37,414 bases of DNA from a virus. Numbering within the stretch: the first letter of the stretch is position 1; every line of letters starts with the position of its first letter. Shown here piece by piece: positions 6,546-24,463 of the stretch. A model generated the notes under the pieces. It had not been told where the DNA came from, searched no databases, and saw only the letters and a program-made list of their open reading frames with translations. The position numbers were made by a program, and so were the translations under genes. The stretch is from positions 1 through 37,414 of the IMG/VR virus record IMGVR_UViG_3300002835_006509; one strand, 5' to 3'.

Positions 6546-9371
6546 TTATTCAGTTCTTGATATAGCGTAATTTTTACGTGCCTCATTTAATAATGATTGT
6601 GTTAAACTTCTACCATATAATGTAATACTCCCCTTCTCTCCTTTAGTATTTTCCATAATTCTATTAAGTATTTGTGAACTTAATCCTAATAATGCAACCA
6701 TTTCTTGTTGAAGCTTAAATTCATATTCAGCATTAGTTAACATTGTTTTTTGTTGTACTATTATTTCACCTTGTTTAACTGTTTGGACATTTGCAGCATT
6801 TACTACTAATTTATTTCCTTCTGCAGTTGCCGCAGCAGTTCCCTTTCCGTCCAATGGTTTTGGAATTGTTTGTTTTAAACCATTTATAAATTCTGCATTG
6901 TTACCCCTTTGCCAGTTCTTAACATTACCTTGACCTTTTGATTTTTCAAATTCTTTAAATAATTCAGGATATAGTTTTTCTGCAGATGCTATTGAATCAT
7001 CTAAAGCCTTTACTTGGGCCTTAGTTGCACTTCCTCTATCTTTACCACTATCTATAACATTTTGTGCATTTACTATGGCTTGAAATGCTGCAATTTGTGC
7101 ATTAGTTTCACTCGTTTTTTTAGTTACCGCTTCATTGTATTGTTTTATTTCTCCACCAAATGATTTTGTCATTGCATCAGACAATTTTTGTGCAATCATT
7201 TCAGGAGTATTTACTAAATTTCCTTTTTTATCTTTTGCTCCTGCGGTTTGTAAAATATCATCCTTTGCACTTAAATAATTAGCCAATCGCATATCCGTAC
7301 CTTTGACTGCACCACTACTAATTAATGTACTAAGTCCGGAATCAACACCACTAATAGTTTTGGTAAAATCACCTATGGCTGCGTCACTTAAACCTTGTCT
7401 ATCCAATCCACTTGCAGTTCCTGCCGTCATATTCGAACTAAATTTTGAAGCCTGGTCTTTTATCATCTCCATTGCCATAGTATTCTTTGCATCTTCATAA
7501 CCCTTTGCGGCTATCAATGCTCTATACTTTTGTTCTAATGCAATACCATCCATTCTTTGAGCCTGTTCTAATGTCAACATAATTAAACGCTGTCTTTGTT
7601 CAAACGCCAACATTTTAGCTCTTTGCTCTTGTTCTAATTTCATTTTAGCAGATGCATTTGCTATATCTTGATTTAATGCACCATCTGCAAATGCTTTACC
7701 TTTATTTTGTTCAGCTTTTAATTCCCCACTTAATCCTCCACCTTTTCCTTGTTGTAATCCCATCAAAGCCGATATATCCATTCCTGTTGCCTGTGTCAAT
7801 GCTTGTTTTTGAAATGCGTTCATCGCGCCGACATCAATTCCACCCAATGCGGTTTTTAATGCAGATGCTGCGCCTGCTTGGTCTCCACTCATTAAACGTG
7901 CTCTTACTTCAGATAAGTTTACATTTTTACCTAACATAGCCGATAAACTCATTTCAGCTTTAATACTATCCTTATAGTTAAGAACCATTGAATCCGATGC
8001 CTTCATCATTTGAGACATAGATACACTCATCTTAGTAAGTAAACCTGCCTGCTTTACAAAGTTTTCTGCAGTACCACTACTAAATTTGTATATATCTTCA
8101 CCCGCGTCTTTGATTTGTGCGAATATTGCCTGTGGTGATAATTTATTTAAATCTGCAAATGCAGTAATACCATTAATTAAATTTTGTGCAGTTTTTGCAG
8201 TTGTCTTTCCCATTAAACGGAAAAGATTTGTCATATTTTGAACATCATCTGCACCTACTCCAAAATGATATGCTAACCCTTGTGCGTTTTCTGATAATTC
8301 AAAACTTTCTTTTACACTACCACCAAAAATTTGTTGAAATTTAGAAATTCCTTCTACAATCATTTTTGTAGAAGAACCAATTGCTCTAAGAGCTCTTTCT
8401 GAAATTGTAGAATATTGATTTATAAATGACATTCCGGATGCTTGAATATCTTTTCTTTTACTCATTTCAGCATCCAATGTTTCCATTGCTTGCTGGAATT
8501 GAAATTGCATGGCATCTTTCCTCAACCCCATTTCGTATTCTAACTTATCTTTAACTAAACCTTGACTATAATTTAATGAATCTTGTTCAATACCTTTATT
8601 GTATTGTAACATATCATCTGCCGCCTGTTGTTTTAGTTGTAATGGTACTGCATAGTTATATTCCGCATTAAGTTTACGCATTTGTTCCGTACCTTCCAAT
8701 GAACTTTTAACATCTTCTAAGTCAGATGCCTTATTCATTTTATTACCACCCAACATTTTAAGTCCAACTTTCATTTTTGCAAAACCACCACTATCCCAAA
8801 AATCAAATGCCATTTTTGCAACGCCTGCAATTGCTCCAATAGGGCCGGCTGCTCTTAAAACACCACCCGCAATACTACCTAATCCACCCATTGCTTTACC
8901 CATCATACCCGCACCAAATCCACCTCCACCTTTAGGGCCGATAGCACCTGCAAATTTAGCCATACCCCTTGTCATAGTTTGAGAGGCTTTTTTTCCAAAT
9001 ACATCACCAGTAAATTTTTGTAATCGTTCAATACCTAATTTAGAAGCTTGTGTTTGAAATTTATCTAATCCTTTTTGAGTTTTTTTAGCCCAAGCTTGGT
9101 TTTTACTTGCCGGCGCATCAGGTGAGCTTCCCCCTGATTTTTTATCCTTATCCCTATCCTTTTTATCTTTTTCCTTTGTTTTTTTATCTTCTTCGGTTGA
9201 TTTTTTAAATGCATCTACCGATTTAGTAAATGTATCTATACTTTTAACAAGTTTGTCCGTTGATGATGAAAAATTTGTGACATTTTTATTAAAGTATGCT
9301 ATACTCCTCTCCATAGAGTTGTCATCGGTATTCGTAGTTACGGGTTTGTATTTATAGGGTTTTTTTGCCAT
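6546..9371 (-). CDS. Tail tape measure protein
   Basis: 941 aa, the longest gene between the tube and baseplate genes, as expected for a tape measure that sets tail length and fills the tube. Residues 55-82 are a Lys/Asp-rich charged stretch (KDKKDRDKDKK), followed by a Gly/Ala-rich hydrophobic segment at about 145-190 (MMGKAMGGLGSIAGG, AAGPIGAIAGVAKMAF) that could insert in a membrane at ejection. Residues 240-320 and 580-680 are rich in Gln/Glu/Lys/Met heptads and likely coiled coil; 495-560 has the Ala/Gly/Met-rich text common in tape measures. At about 0.15 nm per helical residue this allows a tail of roughly 140 nm at most. No lysozyme or peptidase motif was seen. Promoter motif with one mismatch at 9390-9398. 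Confidence 0.9.
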   Translation of the reverse strand: MAKKPYKYKPVTTNTDDNSMERSIAYFNKNVTNFSSSTDKLVKSIDTFTKSVDAFKKSTEEDKKTKEKDKKDRDKDKKSGGSSPDAPASKNQAWAKKTQKGLDKFQTQASKLGIERLQKFTGDVFGKKASQTMTRGMAKFAGAIGPKGGGGFGAGMMGKAMGGLGSIAGGVLRAAGPIGAIAGVAKMAFDFWDSGGFAKMKVGLKMLGGNKMNKASDLEDVKSSLEGTEQMRKLNAEYNYAVPLQLKQQAADDMLQYNKGIEQDSLNYSQGLVKDKLEYEMGLRKDAMQFQFQQAMETLDAEMSKRKDIQASGMSFINQYSTISERALRAIGSSTKMIVEGISKFQQIFGGSVKESFELSENAQGLAYHFGVGADDVQNMTNLFRLMGKTTAKTAQNLINGITAFADLNKLSPQAIFAQIKDAGEDIYKFSSGTAENFVKQAGLLTKMSVSMSQMMKASDSMVLNYKDSIKAEMSLSAMLGKNVNLSEVRARLMSGDQAGAASALKTALGGIDVGAMNAFQKQALTQATGMDISALMGLQQGKGGGLSGELKAEQNKGKAFADGALNQDIANASAKMKLEQEQRAKMLAFEQRQRLIMLTLEQAQRMDGIALEQKYRALIAAKGYEDAKNTMAMEMIKDQASKFSSNMTAGTASGLDRQGLSDAAIGDFTKTISGVDSGLSTLISSGAVKGTDMRLANYLSAKDDILQTAGAKDKKGNLVNTPEMIAQKLSDAMTKSFGGEIKQYNEAVTKKTSETNAQIAAFQAIVNAQNVIDSGKDRGSATKAQVKALDDSIASAEKLYPELFKEFEKSKGQGNVKNWQRGNNAEFINGLKQTIPKPLDGKGTAAATAEGNKLVVNAANVQTVKQGEIIVQQKTMLTNAEYEFKLQQEMVALLGLSSQILNRIMENTKGEKGSITLYGRSLTQSLLNEARKNYAISRTE

Positions 9372-9414: not shown

Positions 9415-9717
9415 TCATCTCCTAGATGCTTTACTGGAGTTTTTTGTATTAGATTTTATTGCTTTATCGTATACGGCTGATTCTGCATCTTTTGCTTTTA
9501 CTAATTCTCTCCAATAAAAGTCTCTTAATTTAATAGGCATAAAATATACATCATTCCAATTAAAACCACCATTGGAATTATAAATTAAACTAAATATTTG
9601 TTGATGTAAAGTTACGGAATAATTAGTCGGTAGGGTAAAAAAAGTCAAGTCCGATTGGGACTTTAAGAGCCTCCTTCTCTCCAGTAAATGGGGATGTGTA
9701 CTCAAACGATAAATCAA
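9415..9717 (-). CDS. gp51-like second ORF of the tail-chaperone pair, probably made by frameshifting
   Basis: 100-codon open frame overlapping the end of the gp26-like gene by 95 bases. Its only early start is TTG with no ribosome-binding site, an in-frame TAA lies 9 bases further upstream, and the first internal ATG is two-thirds in (FMPIKLRDFYW). The part after the overlap (residues 31-80: SVTLHQQIFSLIYNSNGGFNWNDVYFMP, then LRDFYWREL) reads like a real conserved domain of the kind found beside gp26 in marine T4-like phages. This frame equals the gp26 frame plus one, and both frames share the U7 tract. The most likely product is a gp26-51 fusion of 344 aa (+1 slip) or 345 aa (-2 slip). Separate translation from TTG or coupled initiation is the alternative. 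Confidence 0.65.
   Translation of the reverse strand: MIYRLSTHPHLLERRRLLKSQSDLTFFTLPTNYSVTLHQQIFSLIYNSNGGFNWNDVYFMPIKLRDFYWRELVKAKDAESAVYDKAIKSNTKNSSKASRR
9623..9643 (-). promoter_or_regulatory. Putative programmed +1/-2 frameshift site (U7 tract before gp26 stop)
   Basis: On the coding strand the gp26 frame reads GAC TTT TTT TAC CCT ACC GAC TAA. The seven T's are at plus-strand 9637-9643, and the stop is 9623-9625. A P-site tRNA-Phe on the second TTT can move +1 or -2 and still pair with TTT, after which reading enters the downstream frame at ACC CTA CCG. An AAGGAGG sequence lies at 9670-9676, 26 bases upstream, further than known stimulatory Shine-Dalgarno elements. No obvious strong downstream hairpin was found by eye. 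Confidence 0.55.
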
Positions 9718-10450
9718 TATCGGGTGTTAATGCTTGAATGTGTTTTCTAAGTGCTCTTGAATCGGCAGCTTGTAGTTGATTTATAACATAATTACTTATA
9801 TATCCTAAATCTCTATTTCCTTCTACTTCAATTATAACTCTTCTTAATCTAGTTGTTATTTCATTACCTTGTTTCAATGCCTTTTCACTTGCTTCAATAT
9901 CTTTTTGAATTGCAAGTTCATCCATATGTGATAATAACTTAAATTTAATATTCATTCCCGTTTTTGGAAGTGTAAATTCGTATTCGTTATTTCTATTTAG
10001 TTGACTTTCATCAATTTCTTTTATTTTCAATTTTGTCATATCAACTACAACATCAACTGGCTCATTTTCATTTGGGTCTGTGATTGTCACATTGTATTCT
10101 GGGCCATATGCTAATATTCTACTTGAAATTAATATTGCATTTTTATCACCAATCAATAAATCGTTAATATGAACACCTGGTTCAACTACAATTGATTCTA
10201 ATAACTTATCTAATACAATGCCTTTTCTTAATAGGTTTGTAGAAGTTAGAATATCTTCTTCTTTTGCAGTCATTAACTTAATTGTAAGTTCACCTTTTGA
10301 TAATGGATTACCTTCAGGATATGTTAATCCTTTTGATGGTAGACTAATAACTTCCGTTGGAAATGGATAGTCTTTTCTTACTTGTTGGTATTGTTGTTGT
10401 GCTTGTGCACCTAATCCTCTTGTAACTTGTTGTTCGATATTTTCGTTCAT
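9623..10450 (-). CDS. T4 gp26-like baseplate/tail assembly protein (PF12322-type)
   Basis: 275 aa. Residues 28-125 carry the family signature: YPFPTEVISLPSKGL, GELTIKLMTAKEEDILTSTNL, KGIVLDKLLESIV, then DLLIGDKNAILISSRILAYGPEY. T4 gp26 is 208 aa, and this one has the usual extra C-terminal region. It sits between the tube and tape measure genes, the position held in most tailed phages by tail assembly chaperones, so a chaperone role for the tape measure is likely (inference). The gene begins after a hairpin terminator and has at best a two-mismatch form of the promoter motif (10467-10475), which suggests lower expression than the tube gene. Its 3' end overlaps the gp51-like ORF at a U7 tract. 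Confidence 0.8.
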   Translation of the reverse strand: MNENIEQQVTRGLGAQAQQQYQQVRKDYPFPTEVISLPSKGLTYPEGNPLSKGELTIKLMTAKEEDILTSTNLLRKGIVLDKLLESIVVEPGVHINDLLIGDKNAILISSRILAYGPEYNVTITDPNENEPVDVVVDMTKLKIKEIDESQLNRNNEYEFTLPKTGMNIKFKLLSHMDELAIQKDIEASEKALKQGNEITTRLRRVIIEVEGNRDLGYISNYVINQLQAADSRALRKHIQALTPDIDLSFEYTSPFTGEKEALKVPIGLDFFYPTD

Positions 10451-10549: not shown

Positions 10550-11038
10550 TTAGAATTCTAAGATAGCGTAGTCATAAGTCAAAGTTAATTCAATTGACAA
10601 CGGGTCGTTTGAAGCCCAATCCAACTCACCGAAGTTTGCTGAACTAATAAATGCTCCTTTTAAAGTCCATTGTTCAATCTTATCACCTACTGGGCCTAAT
10701 AAATAGAAAGTAATATCTTTCTTATAGAATGCAGAGTATCCATCTCTACCTGTTAATGACTCATGTGATTGTCTTACCCACTCCATAACTTGCTGTGCAC
10801 CTGATGGTACAATTGGGTCATAAAGAGTGATATTCACATCATCCCATGTTGATTTACCTTTAAGCTTTCTTTTTACATTGATATGGTCTAATTCAACTAT
10901 CTCCGATGTGAAAGTTGGTCTTGCTGCTGTTTTGATGATGTACGATTCGATACCATTGATTTCCATAATGAATCTGTTACCCATTTTTGGTTCAAAATTC
11001 TTATAGAACATCTTATCAAACTCTAATATTTCTGGCAT
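10550..11038 (-). CDS. gp19: Tail tube protein (gp19-like)
   Basis: 162 aa, almost exactly the length of T4 gp19 (163 aa). This protein stacks as hexameric rings to form the inner tail tube through which DNA passes. Features include NRFIMEINGIESYIIKTAARP (residues 21-41), the WDDVNITLYDPIVPSGAQQVMEW segment around 66-88 and a C-terminal GAFISSANFGELDWASNDPLSIELTLTYDYAIL pattern that is diagnostic of the family. It directly follows the sheath gene, has its own promoter motif 24 bases upstream and is closed by a terminator, so it can be expressed as a separate, strong unit, in line with the high copy number needed. Confidence 0.93.
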   Translation of the reverse strand: MPEILEFDKMFYKNFEPKMGNRFIMEINGIESYIIKTAARPTFTSEIVELDHINVKRKLKGKSTWDDVNITLYDPIVPSGAQQVMEWVRQSHESLTGRDGYSAFYKKDITFYLLGPVGDKIEQWTLKGAFISSANFGELDWASNDPLSIELTLTYDYAILEF

Positions 11039-13429: not shown

Positions 13430-15166
13430 TTACTTATAGTTTGGAGAAAAATAACTATATGTTCTAGTTACTGCGGTTGCATCTTGTAATACACTATAAA
13501 ACAACACAGGCCCTATTTGACCATTCCAAAATGTTGTTCTTGCACTATTTGCACCAATTGTTAAATAGTTTGTAGATGCAGGTGCCGTAAACGCTGCTGC
13601 TGTAAATGTTCCTACCGATGTTCCGTCTACATAAACTGTTACAGTTCCTGATGGTTGGAATGTTGCAGAAATCATATACCAAACGTTTGCTGATAATGAT
13701 GTCGTTAATTGTGCACTATTACCTAATGTACTACCATAGAATTTAACTCTATCTAATGTAGAACTATTTGATGATTCAATTGCTAAACCAAAAAACCCAC
13801 CATAGTCAAAAATGTGTCTTGTAGTTGTACCCAATGTTGTTGTAGGTCTTACCCAAACGTGAATTGTACCAGTATTAGTATTAAATTGAGAAATACCACC
13901 ATTAATATTTGATGCTGTATCTTTATAAAATAAATCACCACCATCAAACGCATAATATCTTTCTTTTCTACTTGCACCATTATTATAAGATGGGTTACCA
14001 CCTGCTAATGATAAAGGAGATTGTGCTCCAGGTCTAACACCCGTACCATATCCACTCATGTCCAATACATCAACCGATGGTGTACCAGTTGATGGTAGTG
14101 TAGACGATGCAAATGATGCCGTTTTAGCCGGTTCAATATACATTTTTAATCCAGATGCTGGTATAGAAGATTGTGTAGTTGTACCTTTATTGTGTGATAC
14201 TACTCCATTTGCTAAATAAACGTCAGATTCTTCAACATTTATAGTTACAATCTCTACATCACTTGTCACTTGTTCTATATTAGTAACTTCAACTTCTACA
14301 TCACTTTCCATTACTAATTTATCACCAATTAATATATTTTCTACGTTTTTAAATTTATATTTTTGTATTTCGTTATCAAAAACATACAATGGGTGAGTTC
14401 CTGTTGTTTTAATTAAACCATTGTTGATAGAATAATATCCACTTGCAAAGTTAAAAGTTAAATCTGAAATTATTACATTTTGTGCAGTTCCGGATACTTC
14501 ATCTTTATACCAAAATCTCCATTCAGTTTCTCCAGTATCAGTTCCGTCTAAATTCTCATCAGGTAATCCTGCTGGAACCCAAGCTTTAATTTCGTCACCT
14601 ACATTTAAATCTTCAACATTTATTTCATTACCATTTGCTAAAGTTACCTTTGTACCAAATAATAAACAAAAATCAGGTTGGTTAATTGTATTATAAACGT
14701 CTACTGCGTATAAAGTTTTTGTAGATGTAGTATTATAGTTTGTTGCTGCGGTATTATATCCGTCAGCATATGTCATTGATAATACTGAACTAGCTTCTGA
14801 ATAGTTTGCTGCTGCAATTGATGCCGGTGTGATTGGAAATGATGGTGATGCTCCTAATGTTGCAGTACCTACTGTAAAGTTAGCATTATTAAATGTTACC
14901 GAATAATTTGCTGCTACACTTCCAATTCTTGTTCCATGTAATGCACCTGCTGAACCAAATGAAAACGTTGCCGCTTCTTCGGTACTTTCTACTATATAAG
15001 TAAATGTTGGTTGATTTATTGTTATAGAGTCAACTGCAAATGCTAACATTGATGCTGCGGTTCCTGCTGATGCGTTCATAGCATTTAAAGAAACTGCTTG
15101 ACTGGTTCTTGCCGAACCCTGTGTTGCTCTATATAAATTACCTAACGATAGATTTGTTCTTGCCAT
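13430..15166 (-). CDS. Tail adhesin with internal Hint (mini-intein-like) domain and LamG domain
   Basis: 578 aa in three parts. Residues 1-166 are Ser/Ala/Thr-rich and contain two related segments (ITINQPTFTYI near 49 and NTINQPDF just before the Hint domain). Residues 167-326 are a Hint domain: C167-LLFGTKVTLANG (block A), IEDL/VGDEI-like text (NVEDLNVGDEI), T255-G-T-H258-P (block B), and YLANGVVSH325-N326 (blocks F/G). Residues 327-578 are LamG/concanavalin-like, with GTIHVWVRP, RHIFDYGG, WYMISATFQPSGTVTVYVDG and a final NGQIGPVLFYS. The residue after N326 is Lys, not Cys/Ser/Thr, so cleavage rather than efficient splicing is the simple prediction. No homing endonuclease is present. Preceded by the glycosyltransferase gene (11-base gap). 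Exact virion position is unknown. Confidence 0.85.
   Translation of the reverse strand: MARTNLSLGNLYRATQGSARTSQAVSLNAMNASAGTAASMLAFAVDSITINQPTFTYIVESTEEAATFSFGSAGALHGTRIGSVAANYSVTFNNANFTVGTATLGASPSFPITPASIAAANYSEASSVLSMTYADGYNTAATNYNTTSTKTLYAVDVYNTINQPDFCLLFGTKVTLANGNEINVEDLNVGDEIKAWVPAGLPDENLDGTDTGETEWRFWYKDEVSGTAQNVIISDLTFNFASGYYSINNGLIKTTGTHPLYVFDNEIQKYKFKNVENILIGDKLVMESDVEVEVTNIEQVTSDVEIVTINVEESDVYLANGVVSHNKGTTTQSSIPASGLKMYIEPAKTASFASSTLPSTGTPSVDVLDMSGYGTGVRPGAQSPLSLAGGNPSYNNGASRKERYYAFDGGDLFYKDTASNINGGISQFNTNTGTIHVWVRPTTTLGTTTRHIFDYGGFFGLAIESSNSSTLDRVKFYGSTLGNSAQLTTSLSANVWYMISATFQPSGTVTVYVDGTSVGTFTAAAFTAPASTNYLTIGANSARTTFWNGQIGPVLFYSVLQDATAVTRTYSYFSPNYK
14189..14668 (-). other. Hint / bacterial-intein-like domain coding segment
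   Basis: Encodes residues 167-326 of the adhesin, from the Cys at the N-terminal junction to the His-Asn pair at the C-terminal junction. The 160-residue length fits a mini-intein or bacterial-intein-like domain without endonuclease. The key residues Cys1, TxxH and HN are all present; the +1 residue is Lys. Confidence 0.85.
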
Positions 15167-16179: not shown

Positions 16180-17991
16180 TTATAAACCTTTTGATTCTTT
16201 TAACTTTTCGATTTCGATTGTTAAAGAATGAATTTGTGTTTGTTGTTCTTTGATACCTTCAATTAATAATGCTACTAATTTATCGTATTTAACTGCTTTG
16301 AAACCACTTTCTCTTGTTTGAACTAATTGAGGTAATACTGCTTCAATTTCTTGTGCGATTACACCCACATCGTTTCCTTCGTATCCATGCTCAATTTTAT
16401 TTTCAGCTTTCCAATCATAAGTGTTACCACTAATTTTAGAAATCTTATCCAATGCGTTTTCAATTGGAACAATATTTTCTTTAAAACGAATATCTGAAGA
16501 TGAGAATGCAACTACGTCATTTGTTGCGTCAATTCTACCTGCAGTTGCTGATGCTGCCATTCCAACTCCTAATGAATTGAATTGAACATTTGAAGATGTT
16601 GCTACTGCTTGACCGATTGCGATTGATGGGGTTGCATTTTCACCACTATTATTTGTGATTGTAACACCCGTTGATGCTACTAAACTTGCAACATAATCAC
16701 CGGTTGTTTGAGTTGCCAATGCGATATTTCCACTAGCAGAACCTAAACTTACTTGAGATGAGCCACTTACTATTCCTGCTGGGATAGATGAGATACTTGC
16801 GTATGTAATTTGAGATGAACCCGAAACTACACCATTAGTTGATGCAATTGAACCATATAAAGTACCTACTGATAAATCTGCTAATGCAAATGTACCATGT
16901 GCCGTATCTATTGATTGAGATGGTTCTGGAGTATAATTTTTGAAAATCTTAAAGATACCACTATCCGATGCGTCTCTAAACATACCAGCGTGTCTATAAG
17001 TTCCATCATTATAATTACCTGTCCAACCTAAGTCAGGGTTTGTAATATTACTACCTTCATTAAGATATATTAAGTTATCAGTTATAGATAAATTACTTGC
17101 ACTAATTGTTGTTGTTGTACCTTCAATATTTAAGTTACCATATACAGTCAAATTTGAACCTGTTACTGATAATGCTCCTTTTAATGATGATGTATATGAA
17201 TTTATATTTGTAATTGCAATATTTGATGAACCCGTTGTAATTCTTAATTCATTTAATGTAGTTGAAATTGAAGATGAAAGGGTTGATAAAGTTAATCCGT
17301 TTATAGCTCCAGTAGTAGTAATAGAACCAGTTACTACTAAATCATTTCCAAATACTATATTAGTTCCACCTGAACTTAAAAATTTAGCCGTACCATCTTG
17401 CATGCTAACATTTCCTTTAACAGAAATTATACCAGTAGTTGGGTCTAATAATACATCACCACCACCTGAAGATTTTAATTCAATATCTCCATCTACAGTT
17501 TGCATTGTAATATTATCAGTACCTAATTCATTAAATTTAATTCCTTGACCGGTATCGGTTGTAAATATCAATTCTGTTGCATTTGATGAAATTACTTGAG
17601 TTCCATCAATATATAATGATGCAGATGATAAATATAAGTCTCTCCATTGTTTACTAGGAGAACCTAAATCAAATACACTATCCGATGAAGGAATAAGTGA
17701 AGAACTTAAAGATGCTACAACAGTTACATTATCGGCAGTATTATCACCAATTGTAATGTTACCACCCAATCTTAAGTTACCATCAATTTTTGCATTTCCT
17801 GTGATGTCTAATGAAGAACCGGATATACCAGCAAATGAACCCTGACTTCCTGTTCCAGATGCACCCAATGTAATATCACCTGCCGTTCCACCTACTTGTA
17901 ATGTTCCTAAGTCTGTATTTACATAGGGTTCTCCGAATGCCAACGAACCTGATTTCTGTGCGGTGGTACCGCGTCTAAATTTAAGTCCCAT
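16180..17991 (-). CDS. Tail fibre with C-terminal S74 intramolecular chaperone
   Basis: 603 aa. It begins with the short head MGLKFRRGTTAQKSGSLAFGEP shared in style with other fibres here. Residues about 75-250 form a beta module (DLGSPSKQWRDLYLSS, TDTGQGIKFNELGTDN, DGDIELKSSGGGDVLLDPTTG) paralogous to one in the 899-aa fibre. Several SGSSQ(I/V) motifs follow. The C-terminus (from residue 498: S-S499-D500-IRFK504-ENI, later GVIAQEIEAVLPQLV) is a peptidase S74 endosialidase-type chaperone, known in this family to assist trimer folding and then cleave itself before the Ser of the SD motif; a coiled coil ends the protein. Cleavage would leave about 498 residues on the virion. Promoter motif 50 bases upstream. 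Confidence 0.85.
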   Translation of the reverse strand: MGLKFRRGTTAQKSGSLAFGEPYVNTDLGTLQVGGTAGDITLGASGTGSQGSFAGISGSSLDITGNAKIDGNLRLGGNITIGDNTADNVTVVASLSSSLIPSSDSVFDLGSPSKQWRDLYLSSASLYIDGTQVISSNATELIFTTDTGQGIKFNELGTDNITMQTVDGDIELKSSGGGDVLLDPTTGIISVKGNVSMQDGTAKFLSSGGTNIVFGNDLVVTGSITTTGAINGLTLSTLSSSISTTLNELRITTGSSNIAITNINSYTSSLKGALSVTGSNLTVYGNLNIEGTTTTISASNLSITDNLIYLNEGSNITNPDLGWTGNYNDGTYRHAGMFRDASDSGIFKIFKNYTPEPSQSIDTAHGTFALADLSVGTLYGSIASTNGVVSGSSQITYASISSIPAGIVSGSSQVSLGSASGNIALATQTTGDYVASLVASTGVTITNNSGENATPSIAIGQAVATSSNVQFNSLGVGMAASATAGRIDATNDVVAFSSSDIRFKENIVPIENALDKISKISGNTYDWKAENKIEHGYEGNDVGVIAQEIEAVLPQLVQTRESGFKAVKYDKLVALLIEGIKEQQTQIHSLTIEIEKLKESKGL

Positions 17992-23085: not shown

Positions 23086-23862
23086 TTATAGTCCGAATCT
23101 ACTTTTTTGTGCGTTGTAATTTTGTAAAACTTCTCCGGCACTTATTCCTCTACTATATACTCTAAATAAGCCCATTCTACATGCACCATAATATCCATCA
23201 TAGTTTCCTGCAATTCTTCCTATTGCTATACCATTACCTGCAGTAGATGTTGGATAATTTGGACCAGAAGTTTGTCCTCTACCTGAAACCGAATTTGCTA
23301 ATACACCATTTACATAACAACTGACTGTGCTTGGGCTAATTCCTGTTCCTGTTTTTGACCAAACGACATGTACATATGTATTCAACGGATAATCTACCTG
23401 ACTATCTACACGAGATGAATCCCATAAATCCATATGTATTCTATTATCGGTAGGAGTCCATCCTTGTACGGCTAATCCTTGCGTACCCCCTTGTCCTAAT
23501 CCCCAATATGCTCCCGTTGTTCCAACCAAAGTTGCCGTTCTCTTTACAAAAAATTCAATTGTAAAATTTGGGTCACCATTTAGTATTGTTGAATTTATAT
23601 TTGCTTGAGCATATTGATTACTTCCATTAAAATTAAGTGAACCATTTCCATCTGATGAACTAAATGATGGTGAATTATATAATGTACCATGATTACCATT
23701 TCCACTTAAATCTGTCCAAGTTGTACCCGAACCTGCATATGAATTTTTATTAGCAGCATCTAAATGTAATACCAATCCATCGGTTGATATTTGTTTTACA
23801 ACTTCACCTTTTGGGCCAATTGATGTACTATTTAATTTATTTCCGTTTAAATCTAATGGCAT
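23086..23862 (-). CDS. Small LamG/concanavalin-like tail tip protein
   Basis: 258 aa from the ATG chosen here. A longer reading from 23910 is open, but it overlaps the preceding gene, and the MPLDLNGN start matches the heads of its neighbours (MPIDINGN, MPFNIGG). A LamG-type fold is visible: GLVLHLDAANKNSYAGSGTTWTDLSGNGN, FTIEFFVKRTA, YVHVVWSKTG, STVSCYVNGVLA, and a conserved C-terminal GLFRVYSRGISAGEVLQNYNAQKSRFGL. Such domains bind glycans or surface proteins. It is 60-70% alike by eye to the 24476-25198 protein and shares an exact 24-base DNA run with it (23729-23752 against 25069-25092). Starts 4 bases after the Cys-rich tip gene, in the operon headed by the 899-aa fibre. Confidence 0.8.
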   Translation of the reverse strand: MPLDLNGNKLNSTSIGPKGEVVKQISTDGLVLHLDAANKNSYAGSGTTWTDLSGNGNHGTLYNSPSFSSSDGNGSLNFNGSNQYAQANINSTILNGDPNFTIEFFVKRTATLVGTTGAYWGLGQGGTQGLAVQGWTPTDNRIHMDLWDSSRVDSQVDYPLNTYVHVVWSKTGTGISPSTVSCYVNGVLANSVSGRGQTSGPNYPTSTAGNGIAIGRIAGNYDGYYGACRMGLFRVYSRGISAGEVLQNYNAQKSRFGL

Positions 23863-23866
23863 AATG

Positions 23867-24463
23867 TTATAATATATAAATTTCTGATATTGTACAATAT
23901 GAACCACCACCGGTGGAATTACAAGACCTTCCGTGGCCTACACCTGCAATAGCACCACTATTTCTTCTCATAAAACTATAAAATGATTTTACACCACTAA
24001 ATCTCATAAAATTGGTTGCTTCGTTATCACACGCACCAAGTTGTACATTGTATGCTGTATTTTCAAATGCATTTGATGCGTCCCAACGAAATATAATGTC
24101 ACCTAAGCCCGTATTATAAGATGCTAAATTGGGTGCAATTCCTCCATATCCATTTTGATTAAACGTCCAACAGGCGGCAGTTCCTTCGTTTGTAAATTTA
24201 CAAAGTATTCTTGACCAAGGAATTGTATTTTTTATTGTAAAATATAAACCAGAATCGGCACCACCACATCCACCTAAATTAAAATAATAAGATATTGAAT
24301 ACCCACCGGTACTATCATTACCTTGAGATGTGATTGTACAGTTTTGATTATAAACAGTATCAACCATATCACTTGTAACTCTTTTAAAGTTTTTTGGTAA
24401 TATAACACCATCCGGTGTTAACATTGATGACGATAAAGTAGAACCTCCTATATTAAATGGCAT
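23867..24463 (-). CDS. Cys-rich small tail tip protein with shared head
   Basis: 198 aa. The head MPFNIGGSTLSSSMLTPDG matches the heads of the flanking LamG proteins, but the body is unrelated to LamG: Cys-containing segments NQNCTITSQG, LGGCGGADSGLYF, RILCKFTNEGTAACW, LGACDNEATNF and a C-terminal GVGHGRSCNSTGGGSYCTISEIYIL. At least eight cysteines are unusual in this window and could form disulfides outside the cell or bind metal. No signal peptide is seen, as expected for a virion protein. Placed between two LamG tip genes, it looks like an alternative receptor-binding or decoration module on a common anchor (inference). I do not recognise a characterised family for the body. Confidence 0.75.
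   Translation of the reverse strand: MPFNIGGSTLSSSMLTPDGVILPKNFKRVTSDMVDTVYNQNCTITSQGNDSTGGYSISYYFNLGGCGGADSGLYFTIKNTIPWSRILCKFTNEGTAACWTFNQNGYGGIAPNLASYNTGLGDIIFRWDASNAFENTAYNVQLGACDNEATNFMRFSGVKSFYSFMRRNSGAIAGVGHGRSCNSTGGGSYCTISEIYIL

Follow-up and report, generated by a model that had tools for sequence, protein, structure and literature searches.

The window, the whole 37,414-nt stretch of viral DNA analysed here (IMG/VR record IMGVR_UViG_3300002835_006509), carries on its minus strand a gp26-like gene (9623..10450; frame 0) that starts with ATG and encodes a protein of 275 aa. The locus sits between the tail tube gp19 gene upstream (10550..11038, minus strand; PF06841, E 1.9e-9; phrog_4542, E 1e-31) and a tape-measure-sized gene downstream (6546..9371, minus strand). 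The 941-aa product of the downstream gene has no family match among the Pfam and PHROG profiles. It is probably the tape measure protein, as its gene occupies the position of the annotated tape measure gene of Flavobacterium phage immuto, in which the gene order is the same.

A second open reading frame, called mechanically at 9415-9717 on the minus strand, overlaps the gp26-like gene by 95 bases (9623-9717). In the window its only start codon is a TTG (9715..9717), which is not conserved and has no Shine-Dalgarno (SD)-like sequence upstream, and we judge it not to be a real start. At the junction, frame 0 reads GTC CCA ATC GGA CTT GAC TTT TTT TAC CCT ACC GAC TAA. A run of seven T residues (T7; 9637..9643, read TTT TTT T(AC)) is separated by exactly 11 bases from the TAA (9623..9625, minus strand) that ends the gp26-like gene. 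The +1 frame reads ACT TTT TTT ACC CTA and then stays open to 9415. A +1 slip on T7 would add the domain encoded by 9415..9636 (TAC-C) to the gp26-like protein (TAC-N) and yield a fusion of 344 aa (TAC-NC). The original prediction had read this junction as a programmed +1 or -2 frameshift that joins two frames into a product of about 344 aa. Its overlap, T7 position, spacing to the stop and +1 frame are all correct on re-reading, the product length is that given by the +1 slip, and the lack of a ribosome-binding site at the TTG is confirmed.

Two further elements precede the slip site on the same strand: a predicted 5´ hairpin, AAGUCC-CAAUC-GGACUU (9647..9663), located 3 nt before T7, and an SD-like GGAGG (9670..9674), located 26 nt before T7, with approximately 9 unpaired nt left between the two when the hairpin forms. 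T7 by itself is not rare, with TTTTTTTACC expected 0.5 times per window; the case rests on conservation, phase and context. The combination GGAGG-N15-30-TTTTTTTAC occurs once in the window versus 0.02 expected.

Homologues of the locus were gathered from viral contigs and phage records. The end of gp26 is readable in 339 homologous loci and the downstream frame is complete in 324, of which 322 keep the +1 frame open for 181-325 nt beyond the gp26 stop. This gives strong comparative support to the proposal of a programmed frameshift between the gp26-like frame and a second domain. The non-redundant set (<90% identity) contains 210 loci, or 208 when the two loci with separate genes are removed. 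The slip codons in the 210 loci are TTT TTT TGG (128), TTT TTT TAC (40) and TTT CTT TGG (21), with TTC TTT TGG, CTT TTT TGG, TTT TTT TAT, TTT CTA TGG and singletons as minor forms. Across the 208 loci the site is nearly always UUU UUU U(GG/AC): TTT occupies the first slip codon in 199 and the second in 182, and in every one of them the next codon is a sense codon, such as UAC or UGG. Phe at the second codon is never encoded by TTC, versus 23% TTC and 77% TTT among the Phe codons of the same genes. Both the overlap frame (324 complete loci) and the slippery T-run (208 non-redundant loci) on which the original prediction relied are kept among the homologous pairs.

The TAC-C region is most divergent at codon position 3 and least divergent at position 2 of frame +1 in all four main groups, a pattern indicating that TAC-C evolves as coding sequence in that frame. 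In two loci (L189 and L194) TAC-C is a separate, ATG-started gene just after the gp26 stop (HMM E 3e-27 and 2e-26) and has an extra N-terminal segment. Separate genes, the case that the original prediction had set against itself, do exist in these 2 of the 324 loci, but the slip site is lost there too, having decayed to TTC TTG TAT and TTC CTT TGG. The Firmicute-type phages SP-15, LIS04 and GXN1 keep the arrangement, with TTT TTT C, TTT TTT A and TTC TTT C as candidate sites of uncertain exact position; in one scan with the SP-15 protein, SP-15 itself was the only match. TAC-C is annotated as a separate hypothetical gene in the isolate Microcystis phage Mel-JY01, and its annotation is partial or absent in immuto, LIS04 and SP-15.

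The gp26-like protein of the window matches PF12322 (T4_baseplate; E 3.6e-8) and phrog_150 (positions 13-232; E 3e-11), and the fused product extends the latter match to position 250. T4 gp26 and T4 gp51 both belong to PF12322 (E 9e-64 and 4e-52), and their phrog_150 matches reach position 280 in gp51 and only 235 in gp26. An HMM of TAC-C built from the relatives matches the 57-aa "gp51" of cyanophage S-PM2 (E 6e-7 in a three-sequence search). The C-terminus of T4 gp51 aligns weakly with TAC-C at the matching place (P = 0.02), and direct profile comparison is weak. Because of the PF12322 and phrog_150 coverage and the S-PM2 match, the gp26-like protein is assigned as the short chaperone TAC-N and the fusion as the gp51-like long form TAC-NC. 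The gp26/gp51 pair of the original prediction thus holds in substance, except that the second open reading frame is the C-terminal domain only and the fusion is the equivalent of gp51.

The S-PM2-like (cyanophage-type) loci resemble the window in that a homologous TAC-N ends at a Phe-Phe pair and is followed by a homologous TAC-C. In contrast to the window family, their matching Phe-Phe pair is encoded by T_TTT_TTC in 37/37 non-redundant loci, with the -1 frame open in 37/37 and the +1 frame open in 0/37. They have no 5´ hairpin; the stretch before their site is less structured than random (-0.88 versus -1.34, t +3.9). An SD-like 5-mer lies directly 6-24 nt upstream of the S-PM2-type site in 62% of the loci, whereas the GGAGG of the window lies at 26 nt. 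The U_UUU_UUC heptamer with a -1 frame is not found at the window, where C precedes T7 and the frame is +1. The base before the slip pair is T in 0/202 loci with TTT or CTT as the first codon, although codons ending in T are frequent in other parts of these AT-rich genes. The jumbo phages PA5oct and XacN1 (L360 and L361) have -1 arrangements at T TTT TTC and T TTT TTT at the end of the gp26-like gene, and T4 gp26, which ends in GAG TTC TTT GAG TTA CTA TAA, keeps the Phe pair without a slippery site.

The hairpin of the window has a minimum free energy (MFE) of -6.9 kcal/mol (z -3.3); with the first UUU placed in the P site, it immediately precedes the codon in the E site. To compare the relatives, windows of eight codons ending just before the slip were folded with native and with synonymous codons. 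The mean MFE over the 208 loci is -4.84 kcal/mol for native codons versus -2.80 for synonymous ones (t -12.8). When codons are shuffled within columns, so that the composition of each column is preserved, the native stretch stands at z -9.1 for all loci together and at -3.0 to -5.9 for the four main groups; the loci are phylogenetically related, and these t and z values overstate their independence. In the commonest form of the hairpin, nt -18..-14 are paired with -9..-5. Pairing is found in 92%, 95% and 91% in three groups and is weaker (65% of cells) in the group with TGG CCT. Codon choice, above all GGG for Gly, is the main source of the excess of structure, and this choice could serve another purpose; part of the excess may be due to GC bias, which the column shuffle does control for. 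In windows more than approximately 25 codons upstream of the slip, native and synonymous MFE differ little, and the 101-nt region as a whole has an unremarkable MFE (z -0.5), which shows that the hairpin signal is local. Codons -22 to -12 show a second, milder excess over synonymous random sequences, with t between about -4 and -7 across the 208 loci. A long-range stem of nt -39..-33 with the T7/ACC region, suggested by folding, was set aside, as a ribosome at the slip site would open it.

Most of the strong SD-like 5-mers end 24-29 nt before T7, and such 5-mers occur in 93% of the group with TAC, to which the window belongs, 100% of the TTT CTT group, 62% of the TGG CCT group and 5% of the TGG CCA group, versus 0-13% in the control windows of the window's group and 0-15% in those of the four groups together. 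At its linear distance GGAGG is beyond the normal reach of the anti-SD, and it is absent from 38% of the loci; SD pairing at that distance was rejected as too far. We propose that the effective spacing, which in the window would come down to approximately 9 nt, is shortened by the folded hairpin. Where the SD-like element is lacking, in the TGG CCA clade, a 3´ stem-loop of 6 bp occurs instead (nt 12-17/27-32); its six core pairs are unbroken in 39/39 loci and two pairs show compensatory changes (C-G to G-C in 4, C-G to U-A in 3). At the gp26 starts, an SD at or below -6 kcal/mol is found in 0-2% of the window's and immuto groups and in 100% of the TGG CCA clade. An internal SD and an SD at the gene start tend to exclude each other (9/50/119/30; Fisher 4e-18, computed on one gene start and ignoring kinship among loci). 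Ribosomes of Bacteroidia occlude the anti-SD, and yet the RF2 shift of F. johnsoniae retains a perfect SD (PMC8710568), a finding that would fit a recoding-specific use of the SD.

The same fusion could be made by a -2 frameshift, as in the tail genes of phage Mu, with one more residue inserted. On a perfect T7, UUU re-pairs with UUU equally well after either slip and the resulting frame is identical. The +1 re-pairing of the natural variants is of the kinds UUU_U, UUU_C and CUU_U, whereas at the conserved position neither TTC TTT T (6 loci) nor TTT CTA (4 loci) offers a cognate codon after a -2 slip, contrary to what is expected of a Mu-type site. TTT CTT T (22 loci) permits +1 via the RF2-type CUU_U or via UUU_C, and -2 only with a first-position mismatch. 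In the six TTC TTT loci only the second codon can serve for the slip, which puts it 3 nt further away from the hairpin. UUU_Ynn is a tetranucleotide class reported to be particularly prone to +1 shifting in bacteria, and the RF2 site is CUU_U (PMC5009743); a CUU_U or UUU_U slip codon of the RF2 type is present here. A hairpin next to the E site would moreover oppose backward movement (PMC6321510), and we regard -2 slippage as improbable. Of the two directions originally predicted, +1 is retained. Slippage of RNA polymerase on T7, which would give transcripts one base shorter or two longer and dispense with a ribosomal shift, would suit the homopolymer at the junction and the strict avoidance of T just before it. 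However, approximately 32 of the 208 loci have no run of more than five T's (TTT CTT, TTT CTA, TTC TTT) and nevertheless keep the overlap and the frame, which argues against polymerase slippage, and this process would need no 5´ RNA hairpin; we rate it as very improbable. The variants mostly exclude both -2 and polymerase slippage, and it is very likely that a +1 programmed ribosomal frameshift makes the long tail assembly chaperone.

Independent translation of TAC-C, by internal initiation or stop-start coupling and without fusion, would be compatible with the TTG of the window, with GGAGG as an internal ribosome-binding site and with the ATG-started genes of L189 and L194. But 73 of the 208 loci have no ATG, GTG or TTG in the +1 frame before the slip site (147 have no ATG), protein similarity of TAC-C continues right up to the slip site (FFTLP / FFGLP), and the site decays exactly where a separate gene exists; we rate such an origin, too, as very improbable. 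Homopolymers are error-prone and the record is a contig of an uncultured virus, so the split could in principle be an error of sequencing or assembly that divides one fused gene. Comparison with the relatives has already refuted this: the same T7 split is found in hundreds of contigs and in Mel-JY01, whose site is TTT TTT TGG, and immuto has a non-homopolymer site, TTT CTT TGG, which reduces the chance of an error to a negligible level. An alternative of another kind accepts the frameshift and regards the hairpin and GGAGG as by-products of amino-acid and codon constraints, with slippage needing only UUU UUU U. Pro-X-Gly is conserved in the protein and its CC...GG pairs by itself; most hairpin pairs involve these conserved amino acids, with little pairwise covariation. 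The protein-preserving synonymous randomisation and the column shuffle described above nonetheless leave the native stretch more stable than expected, and the homologous -1 family is without such structure. We consider the by-product explanation unlikely, albeit the most serious of the alternatives.

The best explanation is that one gene specifies two tail assembly chaperones, TAC-N by normal termination and TAC-NC by a +1 slip on UUU UUU U, an explanation to which we assign a probability of approximately 0.85 on comparative grounds. From the overlap, frame, slip site, hairpin, GGAGG and lack of starts, as compared among the relatives, we infer the efficiency of the shift, the role of each element and the function of the products as follows. 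Most ribosomes would stop at 9623 and release TAC-N, the gp26-like protein of 275 aa, while a minority would slip one base forward, with tRNA-Phe shifting from UUU to the overlapping +1 UUU, and add TAC-C to give the 344-aa TAC-NC. As the ribosome reaches T7, the hairpin at 9647-9663 would refold inside the mRNA exit channel, beside the E site, and act like an internal SD duplex that favours forward slippage and blocks backward slippage. GGAGG, which would move closer when the hairpin folds, may reinforce this effect, and the lack of a U before the first UUU would remove -1 re-pairing. By analogy with lambda gpG/gpGT, TAC-NC would help the tube subunits to assemble around the tape measure protein.

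The fusion strategy of T4-like tail chaperones is itself not new. Vladimirov, Gautam and Davidson (Virology, 2022), who proposed it, reportedly identified the tail assembly chaperones of T4-like phages, with gp26 as TAC-N and gp51 as TAC-NC. Like the window, these chaperones have PF12322 and phrog_150, lie between the tube and tape measure genes and give two products with a common N-domain; T4 itself has separate genes, whereas the window has one gene and a proposed shift. Xu, Hendrix and Duda are said to have described lambda G/GT and other tail assembly chaperone frameshifts in 2004. Lambda G/GT resembles the window in its overlapping genes before the tape measure gene and its minor, C-terminally extended product, as predicted for the window, and differs in using a -1 shift on another heptamer. 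The bacterial prfB (RF2) +1 frameshift site is AGGRGGUAUCUUUGAC. It shares with the window family, as predicted there, the +1 slip on YUU_U and an upstream duplex near the E site, and the CUU_UGG C variants of the family closely resemble its CUU_UGA C. However, prfB has UGA in the A site, where the window family has a sense codon (UAC/UGG), and its duplex is formed between rRNA and an mRNA SD 3 nt before the slip codon, in contrast to the mRNA hairpin and the SD-like element 26 nt away in the window family.

In PMC12846349, the sites cited from Vladimirov et al. are poly-T -1 sites, in contrast to the window family with its +1 direction, 5´ hairpin and frequent GGAGG. Huang, Cho and Chang (2018) reported that engineered hairpins juxtaposing the E site raise +1 and attenuate -1 shifting in 70S translation (PMC6321510). 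Like the window hairpin, theirs adjoin the codon in the E site on its 5´ side, and the site is +1-prone; they were engineered and studied with reporters and in vitro translation, in a text that contains no natural or phage example, whereas the window hairpin is natural and predicted from sequence comparison. Among open papers, to which the search was confined and in which absence is weak evidence, we found no natural phage example of a 5´ hairpin stimulating +1 shifting and no description of the +1 direction in the window's group, of the hairpin or of the switch in direction. As far as the accessible literature shows, the apparent difference in shift direction between lineages at the matching Phe-Phe pair, together with the base before it, is new here. 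The GGAGG lying about 26 nt upstream in many loci and the covarying 3´ stem-loop of one clade are likewise new to this analysis.

We lean, with reserve, towards a more specific proposal. The site would be a natural cassette in which an E-site hairpin, rather than an SD duplex alone, drives the +1 shift on UUU UUU U. At one homologous Phe-Phe site, the direction in T4-like phages would flip between -1 and +1 with the preceding base and the hairpin, and in Bacteroidota-like phages, with gene starts that lack an SD, a GGAGG would persist at the recoding site, its distance reduced by the hairpin. If true, this would be a natural counterpart of a hairpin effect so far shown in synthetic constructs. 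Opposite directions at the same Phe-Phe pair, with clean sequence correlates, open the question of direction to a direct test in which only a few bases are exchanged. Should the hosts be Bacteroidota, in which the anti-SD is occluded (PMC8710568), the site would also bear on recoding on ribosomes that rarely use SD pairing. The analysis also extends the known frameshift strategy to a large, mostly uncultured group of T4-like phages and corrects the annotation of TAC-C.

Other genes on the minus strand of the window were noted in passing. The protein encoded at 13430-15166 has a Laminin_G_3 domain (E 1e-16) and a segment that looks Hint/intein-like by eye (CLLFGTKVTLANG...VEDLNVGDEI...ANGVVSHN); this segment drew no Pfam hit. 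Two open reading frames at 23086-23910 and 23867-24463 overlap by 44 bases, the second encoding a Laminin_G_3 protein with a GTG start; they are probably an ordinary gene pair, since an ATG lies further in. The product of 16180-17991 is tail-fibre-like, carries Mtd_N and ends in an endosialidase chaperone (Peptidase_S74), and a gene of the Phytanoyl-CoA dioxygenase family (PhyH, E 2e-15) lies at 1377-2153, near the structural genes.
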